Source: Dysgonamonadaceae bacterium (GTDB taxonomy: Bacteria > Bacteroidota > Bacteroidia > Bacteroidales > Azobacteroidaceae). Taken from it: a DNA stretch of 11,606 bases. The notes under the pieces are model-generated. The model worked only from the letters and a program-made list of their open reading frames with translations, was not told where the DNA came from and searched no databases. Below, in pieces: positions 1 to 1,357 of this stretch; position 1 is the first letter of the stretch; every line of letters starts with the position of its first letter. Made by a program: the position numbers and the translations under genes. The stretch lies in assembly GCA_031256015.1 (NCBI GenBank), contig JAIRRK010000073.1, positions 1 to 11,606 of the forward strand, in the 5' to 3' direction.

Positions 1-1295
1 AATTAAACATTACGAAGTATCGGCTGTTGCCGGTGATTTTCTGTCTGCTGTTAACCGGCTATTCCCGCGCACAGGTAACGATAGGTGCGAACATCGACCC
101 GAACGAAGGTTCGTTGCTCGACCTGAAAACAAGCGATGAAAGTGTCAATTCCACCAAGGGGATGATGTTGCCTCGCGTGCAGCTGACCGATTTTAACAAG
201 CTTTACCCGATGCTTAACGACGACTACGACCCGGCTGAAAATGCCAAGCATGTCGGGCTGACGGTGTACCCCATAGATGTGCATGGATGCAACGCATGGC
301 TTCCGGGAGGGATTTATGTATGGGACGGTGCGAAATGGGAGGGACTCTATCCTGTCGATGACGTAACGAAATATGTTGACATCGAGGTAGACGAAGACGG
401 TGCCGGTCCTTTGGTCGGAAAAACCACCTTGCGCTTTCTGACTTACAACCTCGGTGCCAATCCCGGTCTTACTCCCAAACAGCAGATGGCTTACGATACT
501 CAAGGCGATGCGAGTGACATAACCGTATTCGGGGGCTTGTACCAGTGGGGCCGTAAGGATGCGGAACATTCGTTGCGGTGCGCCATGGCCGGTCATTCCG
601 GCAGTTTCACGCCCGACCAATACGATACCGCTGCCGATGCTGCTGCCGGCGGCCAATTTGTCTATGGCAGCAGTAATGATGATTGGCTTTCGGATCAAAC
701 CGACTATTTGTGGGGCAACGGCGGCGGTTTAGCTACTCAAACCAACACAACTTATAGCGACCCTCAAAATGTCAATAATCCTTGTCCTTCCGGTTATCGC
801 GTACCTACTCAGTATGAATGGGCATTGCTTGGTCATAAGGAGAATGGGCCCGATAACCCATGGTCTGATTACTTTGATGCCTATGGTAGTAATAGTACAT
901 CTTCCGGTTTAGGACTTATTCCCGACGGAAATCCGGGTATAGTGTGGGTACCTGTTTCCGAGGGTACGGCATCGACCTCTTGGAGTGGCGGTAAGACTTG
1001 CGGTTACGCGTTGTACACCTTCGGTGAATGGGACGGTGCCGCTCTCGGTTACAAGACCGGTAACGATCCTCTTATCGATGCCGGTGCTCCTGAGCCGTTA
1101 CTTTTCTTGCCTGCCGGCGGTATCCGGAGCTACAGCGACGGTATCGTGGGCTATACGGGTAGCTACGGCTACTATTGGAGTAGTGTAGTGGATGGTACCT
1201 ACTCGTACTACATGACCTTCGGCAGTAGCAACGTGTACGCGGGCGACAGCTACTACCGTGCGAACGGCCAGAGTGTTAGGTGTATTGCGGAGTGA
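1..1295 (+). CDS. Secreted FISUMP-domain (C-type-lectin-like) surface protein, 5' partial; candidate DGR target
   Basis: The protein is predicted to be exported and displayed outside the cell or on the envelope. The reading frame is open to the left edge, and the first in-frame start-like codon is a TTG at 27 inside the signal peptide. The true start is therefore probably just upstream of the window. The visible N-terminus is basic, then hydrophobic (about 18-62), ending in a likely cleavage site before QVTIGA. The next part (VTIGANIDPNEGSLLDLK, GLTVYP, GIYVWDGAKWEGL) is a common N-terminal module of Bacteroidales surface proteins. The C-terminal half carries FISUMP hallmarks: GGLYQWG, CPSGYRVPTQYEW near 783, FLPAGG, YYWSS and a terminal SVRC. 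The last ~60 codons have the codon pattern of a DGR variable region. GC content is clearly higher than in the neighbours. FISUMP assignment is confident; the ligand is unknown and DGR targeting is inferred. Confidence 0.85.
   Translation, partial: LNITKYRLLPVIFCLLLTGYSRAQVTIGANIDPNEGSLLDLKTSDESVNSTKGMMLPRVQLTDFNKLYPMLNDDYDPAENAKHVGLTVYPIDVHGCNAWLPGGIYVWDGAKWEGLYPVDDVTKYVDIEVDEDGAGPLVGKTTLRFLTYNLGANPGLTPKQQMAYDTQGDASDITVFGGLYQWGRKDAEHSLRCAMAGHSGSFTPDQYDTAADAAAGGQFVYGSSNDDWLSDQTDYLWGNGGGLATQTNTTYSDPQNVNNPCPSGYRVPTQYEWALLGHKENGPDNPWSDYFDAYGSNSTSSGLGLIPDGNPGIVWVPVSEGTASTSWSGGKTCGYALYTFGEWDGAALGYKTGNDPLIDAGAPEPLLFLPAGGIRSYSDGIVGYTGSYGYYWSSVVDGTYSYYMTFGSSNVYAGDSYYRANGQSVRCIAE
1122..1292 (+). other. 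Candidate DGR variable region (VR) with 3' invariant segment
   Basis: From 1122 to 1268, 28 of 49 codons end in C: TAC x9, AGC x5, GGC x5, and GAC, ATC, ACC, AAC x2 each, plus TTC x1. These are products expected if AAC codons of a template were changed at their adenines. Codons between them (CGG, TGG, AGT, GTG, GCG, CGT) look fixed. The final codons, 1269-1292 (CAG AGT GTT AGG TGT ATT GCG GAG), contain no AAC and would correspond to the initiation-of-mutagenic-homing end. The encoded fold, a C-terminal C-type-lectin-like domain ending in YYWSS...SVRC, is the usual DGR target fold. No reverse transcriptase or template repeat is present here, so any such retroelement would act in trans. Confidence 0.5.
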
Positions 1296-1329
1296 GTGAA
1301 GAACTAAGAGTGAAGAGTTAAGAACTAAG
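1295..1329 (+). repeat. Short interleaved direct repeats after the surface-protein stop
   Basis: AGTGAAGA occurs at 1295-1302 and 1309-1316, and AAGAACTAAG at 1299-1308 and 1320-1329. The spacing is regular and the units interleave, giving a purine-rich tract between the stop codon and the terminator hairpin. Function is unknown. Confidence 0.5.
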
Positions 1330-1357
1330 GGATGCGGGTAACTGCATCTCTTTTTTT
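1329..1357 (+). terminator. Rho-independent terminator of the FISUMP gene
   Basis: A 7-bp stem (GGGATGC with GCATCTC, one G-T pair) closes an 8-nt loop at 1336-1343 and is followed at once by seven T residues (1351-1357). It lies 33 nt past the stop codon. On the other strand no T tract follows the hairpin, so it mainly serves the plus-strand gene. Confidence 0.8.

Follow-up and report, generated by a model that had tools for sequence, protein, structure and literature searches.

The 3′ end of a single gene raises the question addressed here: has it been rewritten by a retroelement of the DGR type, and if so, from where? In such systems, a reverse transcriptase (RT) copies a template repeat (TR) with adenine-specific errors and the resulting cDNA replaces the end of a target gene. 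The window analysed is an entire contig (C201; 11,606 bases) of a 1.64-Mb metagenome-assembled genome (MAG) comprising 225 contigs, which is 81.6% complete and 1.5% contaminated. As set out below, the pattern of variation among related gene ends leads us to the view, with a probability of about 0.9, that the 3′ end of the window gene is a DGR variable region and one of many dispersed remote targets.

A divergent FISUMP gene with a variable 3′ end

The gene lies at positions 3–1295 of the forward strand, its 5′ end being truncated by the contig start. Its product has a secreted-type N-terminus, as judged by eye, and by sequence is a divergent FISUMP (Fib_succ_major) relative which does not reach the curated cut-offs: it scores 21.0 bits (E 4e-4) against PF09603, with a cut-off of 33.9, and 31.7 bits (E 2e-7) against TIGR02145, with a cut-off of 41.65. 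A homolog that is 60% identical to the window protein (P0002) clears the Pfam cut-off with 36.1 bits. Among the 120 listed of 177 matches, the nearest proteins are metagenomic, several of the named ones are annotated as FISUMP or fibrobacter succinogenes major paralogous domain protein, and the best non-self homologs are 60–65% identical; near-identical alleles were not seen amongst them. Named relatives, among 80 of 200 loci, include Candidatus Symbiothrix and Dysgonamonadaceae MAGs, which we take to be of termite-gut origin. A PDB sequence search with the window protein gave nothing under E 0.15, and none of 21 pattern matches of the window profile to viral contigs was confirmed.

The variable repeat (VR; approximately 1098–1283 on the forward strand, with boundaries set by eye) lies at the 3′ terminus of the gene and is homogenised between the closest paralogs save at NN positions; from 1122 to 1271, the paralog alignment reveals hypervariable NNC, NNT and NNG codons alternating with frozen ones. 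These codons are followed by a conserved 3′ block, SVRC[IV]AE plus the stop codon (1272–1295; SVRCIAE in the window copy), which is located where an initiation-of-homing site would be expected and may serve as one. The preliminary description had given this block as QSVRCIAE; it is indeed fixed from the AGT at 1272 onwards, but the first codon of that version (CAG, 1269–1271) varies between copies as CAG, CTG, ATG and TCG.

The first hint of a DGR was an excess of C-ending codons. The 28 of 49 counted earlier in 1122–1268 are reproduced here, compared with 113 of 371 in 3–1115 (Fisher p 3e-4, which is optimistic since the region was picked by eye), and 28 is the highest number in any 49-codon stretch of the gene, first attained with a start at 1110. 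By itself, in a single sequence, this signal is modest and suggestive; it becomes strong only in combination with the paralogs and the congener templates.

Variation among paralogs in the same genome

A search of the MAG with positions 1081–1295 of the window revealed 15 places at E ≤ 6.1e-10, the window itself included, and one 20-base chance match. A sixteenth copy of this family (family 1; L190 on C35), whose VR is interrupted by the start of its contig, surfaced in a search for the downstream hairpin described below; of the statistics, it enters only the number of copies, the comparison of flanks and the tally of contig ends. The codon alignment of the family has frozen codons interleaved with codons of the NNC form.

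In the eight closest copies, a core chosen after the data had been seen by dropping seven of the 15 (L007, L008, L010 and L012–L015), 106 alignment columns are invariant and 59 are variable. Thirty-four columns contain at least three letters; A is present in all 34, and they are distributed over codon positions 1, 2 and 3 as 18, 15 and 1, respectively. The lone third-position column belongs to an alanine codon (1260–1262, forward strand) which is GCG, GCA, GCT or GCC across the eight copies, with adjacent synonymous sites constant (the nearby CGT and GGC are invariant in 8/8). All four third bases are what a template adenine would give at this codon, and an A occupies the position in three of five congener templates. 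Exceptions inside the core comprise TTA (twice), GAA, GTA, TTT and codon indels; the seven dropped copies differ also at non-A sites, some with a change of length through codon insertions.

The six copies L001–L006 permit a comparison of the VR with what lies upstream of it. In the VR, the three codon positions show 0.27, 0.27 and 0.044 differences per codon, respectively, as against 0.28, 0.30 and 0.36 upstream. Upstream, 139 of 530 comparisons at four-fold sites reveal a difference, but in the VR only 18 of 293 do so, and 13 of these 18 lie in the GCN codon, so that outside this codon the proportion is 5/278. The amino acid is constant at 17 four-fold columns: 15 of these do not vary at all, one carries one substitution, and the last, in the GCN codon, shows all four bases. 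Such low four-fold divergence places the last rewriting of the VRs recently, relative to the gene duplications. The preliminary description had held that free synonymous change among paralogs would count against a DGR; here synonymous sites prove to be frozen unless a template adenine is implied. The pattern as a whole, with positions 1 and 2 varying and the third frozen, points to one template copied with adenine errors, rather than to amino-acid selection or ordinary gene conversion.

Comparison with templates of congeners

RVT_1 matches are present in 30 of the 58 genomes searched (our MAG was included, and is negative), many of them to non-DGR RTs. Amongst RT-bearing stretches of the same genus, 10 of 18 contain TR/VR-like pairs with mismatches on adenines; eight of these pairs, each cut back until 8 bases match at either end, have 123 adenine mismatches and one non-adenine mismatch, the pairs at L094 and L103 being untrimmed and uncounted.

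Congener cassettes were located at G026:C92, G023:C415, G008:C60, G006:C72 (BNYG01000072.1) and G006:C21. Their targets resemble the window gene in having a FISUMP-type end with the scaffold [LF]PA[AG]G.R ... YWS ... RC and a VR at the 3′ end, and their TR and VR differ, after trimming, only at adenines. Related FISUMP genes in congeners adjoin DGR genes: target, MutS_I-like ORF, Avd, TR and RT lie near each other, in varying order, whereas the window gene stands alone. The G023 cassette has its RT frame in two parts, and the target at G006:C21 is truncated by the contig end. The G026 proteins and the MutS_I-like ORF of G002 were compared with protein-family models; the proteins of the remaining cassettes were assigned by alignment. 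The G026 RT exceeds the RVT_1 cut-off with 54.4 bits; its Avd exceeds that of bAvd (PF22296) with 56 bits, scores 63.2 against the NCBIfam Avd model, under the cut-off of 80, and matches the PHROG family Avd of DGR. The G026 MutS_I-like ORF reaches 20.7 bits against a cut-off of 20.6, and that of G002 is under the cut-off.

We used as a template reference the TRs of the five same-genus DGRs whose targets align with the window VR, and defined an A column as one with A in at least four of the five; the reference is thus made up of congener templates and is independent of our MAG. In the eight closest family-1 copies, 32 of 42 A columns are variable, compared with 14 of 90 columns without A (p 1.7e-11); with a threshold of at least three letters, the counts are 25/42 and 3/90 (p 9e-13). 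For all 15 copies, the corresponding figures are 39/42 against 60/90 (p 1e-3) and 34/42 against 29/90 (p 2e-7). The contrast is weaker in the full set because its seven additional copies are more diverged at non-A sites, some of them in length; alignment columns are not independent trials, so all of these p values are approximate. The reading of the gene end as a DGR variable region thereby gains strong support, since variation among the paralogs tracks the adenines of independent congener templates, and on this sequence evidence the end of the window gene almost certainly owes its present form to a DGR.

Homologs from metagenomes bear on the same point. A VR of equal length occurs in 21 of the 120 listed homologs, six of which are at least 50% identical to the window protein, a cut set after seeing the data. 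In these six proteins, residues which an NNC codon cannot encode (K, Q, E, M and W) occupy 5 of 120 hypervariable sites, compared with 327 of 2063 upstream sites (p 1.3e-4); this family has NNG at the final codon, where two of the five, both M, are located. Across all 21 length-matched proteins, the same residues occupy 21 of 420 hypervariable sites.

A second family and the scale of the repertoire

The hairpin search also led to gene ends of the form FSVRCKKD (family 2), and a search with one such end returned 18 places (L232–L249, on contigs C95, C13, C124, C202, C104, C89, C21, C23, C68, C6, C25, C15, C78, C148, C184, C135 and C9), three of them fragments of merely 29–52 bases. The family resembles the target and template of the cassette in congener G002. 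Compared with the G002 template, 16 aligned copies are hypervariable in 39 of 54 A columns and in 19 of 123 others (p 3e-13), the alignment leaving out L238 and L249, whose FPVRC was missed by the motif. Third-position divergence is 0.176 in the VR and 0.328 upstream (nine long copies); being about half as divergent there, rather than nearly frozen, family 2 is presumably older or in decay, or else draws on more than one template.

The VRs of two family-2 copies, L233 (C13) and L242 (C6), differ over their shared stretch at a single base, which lies in a variable codon; this suggests that a VR was recently duplicated or exchanged. At L203 (C146), a gene end reading HGFARVTLLN precedes the same repeat and hairpin (175–195) and recalls a TR/VR pair of congener G005 (L103); this type is possibly a third VR family.

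Taken together, the two families comprise 34 related gene ends (16 and 18) on 33 of the 225 contigs. No two of the downstream flanks of 32 copies are alike, so the copies are distinct loci rather than alleles. Frames are open to the end of the available sequence in 14 of 15 family-1 and 15 of 18 family-2 copies. For ten contigs the terminus falls within a VR or the 3′ block belonging to it, compared with 1.7 expected, in a test conceived after the ends had been seen. Repeats or live hypervariation could cause these breaks, and in either case loss of a cassette from the assembly becomes likelier; more generally, gene ends of the VR type can fragment assemblies.

Hairpins downstream of the variable regions

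Between the stop codon of the window gene and a hairpin there is a tract of heptad-type repeats (AACTAAG/AGTTAAG; 1296–1329, forward strand). The hairpin itself (1330–1357, forward strand, the conserved structure being at 1330–1350) has a 4-base loop and a T run; it resembles a terminator, and is also a candidate for the target hairpin of a DGR. The MAG contains 30 such hairpins, 21 of which lie within 230 bases behind a VR-type gene end (11 in family 1, 9 in family 2, and one behind a diverged relative on C16), with the remaining nine elsewhere, including behind ordinary genes. This distribution speaks against a genome-wide terminator unconnected to VRs. The loop is GNRA in 28 of the 30, the search pattern itself having imposed the G and the A at the loop ends.

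The conserved hairpin follows 11 of 16 family-1 copies and 9 of 17 located family-2 copies, and another stem of at least 8 bp follows the other five family-1 copies and family-2 copy L238. A stem of at least 8 bp is thus found within 260 bases of 16/16 family-1 and 10/17 family-2 copies (one copy being unlocated and two having short flanks); these stems may equally be terminators. In congeners, an inverted repeat of at least 8 bp follows all eight VRs and one of eight TRs, with a 7-bp stem behind one further TR.

Efficient homing in phage BPP-1 requires a hairpin downstream of the VR (PMC3240598, in excerpt), and by analogy the hairpin here may be a homing signal; given the T run and the hairpins behind ordinary genes, a plain terminator family is also possible. 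The structure resembles the BPP-1 target hairpin, as it appears in the same excerpt, in being an inverted repeat with a 4-base loop, located 3′ of the VR and missing behind the template. The BPP-1 examples described there have 7–10 bp stems, a GRNA loop and a distance of 4–34 bp from the VR, whereas the hairpin here has an 11 bp stem, a loop that is mostly GNRA and a more distant position, and occurs behind ordinary genes as well.

The search for the retroelement

That no retroelement lies nearby, as noted at the outset of this work, extends beyond the window: RVT_1 (PF00078) has no match in it or anywhere in the 81.6% complete MAG, in a search for which 3 of 14 control genomes were positive. 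Nothing was found in the MAG with a profile of seven congener RT sequences or with an Avd profile, both run without a positive control, nor with a MutS_I-like profile that was positive in 4/4 congeners. The own-genome VR search for a template gave 15 coding copies and the 20-base chance match, and no TR. A DGR RT is near none of the 46 FISUMP loci of the MAG, and near two of the 80 named loci (L137 and L140). The preliminary description had inferred a remote target of a DGR encoded elsewhere in the genome; the DGR origin is strongly supported, whilst the RT, Avd, MutS-like gene and template were not found in the MAG. As the MAG is incomplete and in 225 contigs, the missing genes do not refute a DGR elsewhere in the genome.

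Remote-type targets may also occur in a congener. Queried in four genomes, the G026 template identifies only the cis target in G026 itself; in G006, which has DGR cassettes, VR-type FISUMP ends were found also at L217 (C58) and L226 (C11), on contigs with no RVT_1 match, and these are candidate remote-type targets. These two contigs speak against the notion that congeners have no remote targets.

Two neighbours of congener DGR genes deserve mention. A MutS domain I-like ORF of 146–178 aa stands beside Avd in seven same-genus DGR loci (L088:2237–2749, L090:1681–2178, L095:1139–1579 and four more). The DGR genes of three congeners have as a neighbour a thioredoxin-fold protein that was identified as TlpA-like by eye (L088:4740–5963, L089:1281–2588 and L090:4072–5304). 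The latter was considered as a marker of the cassette site in our MAG, where it has one match of 45% identity over residues 307–405 of 410 and weaker ones; no cassette site was located by these partial matches.

Proposed mechanism and alternative explanations

We propose that the RT of a DGR would copy an AAC-rich, non-coding template repeat, making errors specifically at adenines, and that the mutagenised cDNA would replace the end of the target gene, the window gene being one of many putative remote targets scattered in an uncultured Bacteroidales genome. A DGR with matching templates probably acted in trans here until recently, and most likely still does so from a locus missing in the assembly. 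By analogy with other DGR targets, the protein probably displays a diversified binding surface outside the cell.

The best-surviving alternative is a sub-case of DGR origin, with odds that overlap those of the main explanation: RT and template were lost recently, and the gene ends are remnants. The cassette parts sought in the MAG (RT, Avd and the MutS-like gene) were not found, Treponema denticola isolate al-2 keeps six targets with the core DGR absent (PMC4891356, in excerpt), and non-adenine change has affected a number of family-1 copies and a large part of family 2. Nonetheless, we regard such a loss as less likely than not, as the near absence of four-fold differences in VRs outside the GCN codon, compared with upstream, indicates rewriting that was recent relative to the duplications, and the assembly is both incomplete and often broken within these very genes.

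Much less probable is gene conversion among paralogs or from silent cassettes, comparable with pilin antigenic variation. There are numerous partial copies, and the VR shared by L233 and L242 is a sign of some exchange or duplication. Conversion would, though, homogenise codon positions 1 and 2 too, whereas only non-adenine sites are homogenised here, and the partial copies, with their mostly open frames, look assembly-cut and not silent. Diversifying selection on a ligand loop, coupled with a preference for C-ending codons and involving no DGR, would account for variation at positions 1 and 2 and for the 28 of 49 C-ending codons, but is most improbable, since 15 of 17 fixed-residue four-fold columns are invariant while 26% of upstream four-fold comparisons differ, and since the variation tracks the adenines of independent congener templates.

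Returning to DGR origin, a wider picture can be drawn tentatively, at somewhat less than even odds: one or two DGRs would act in trans on some 34 secreted FISUMP-type genes of a small Bacteroidales symbiont, two template families rewriting its whole surface repertoire, with the shared hairpin as the homing signal. If the ends are served in trans, the repertoire per genome is above the counts met in the literature, itself surveyed in part. The closest named relatives include Candidatus Symbiothrix, and variable surface proteins could in such organisms aid attachment to the host cell or escape from phage.

Relation to known systems

DGRs, remote targets and Fib_succ_major targets are already published; it is the scale here that is unusual. 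Literature searches returned no paper joining DGR with Symbiothrix, and none joining the full FISUMP name with termite. The comparisons that follow draw on excerpts of the papers cited. A global survey concedes that RT-centred searching has limits (PMC8144416), and the present case shows what such surveys miss. In cyanobacteria, 76 remote targets are reported over 21 genomes with known DGRs (PMC7517822), and in Trichodesmium an excerpt gives 18 loci with TR/VR homology. The gene ends described here are like the remote targets of cyanobacteria (PMC7517822) and T. denticola (PMC4891356) in being dispersed paralogs with 3′ VRs that are far from an RT or, in some isolates, without one; they are unlike the cyanobacterial targets, as excerpted, in that 34 related ends occur in one partial MAG in which no RT was found. 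Fib_succ_major has been recorded as a DGR target in human microbiomes (9 proteins, Table 2 of PMC4159848); these belong to the same domain family, but were detected via templates in human samples. The 7.95-Mb genome of Thiohalocapsa PB-PSB1 has nine loci, of which four are complete, with 15 targets and 21 VRs between them (PMC10907252). As here, there are many targets per genome, some put down to trans action, and variable positions are nearly all at codon positions 1 and 2; its targets are ascribed, in the excerpt, to conflict systems, whereas those of the present MAG are FISUMP proteins.
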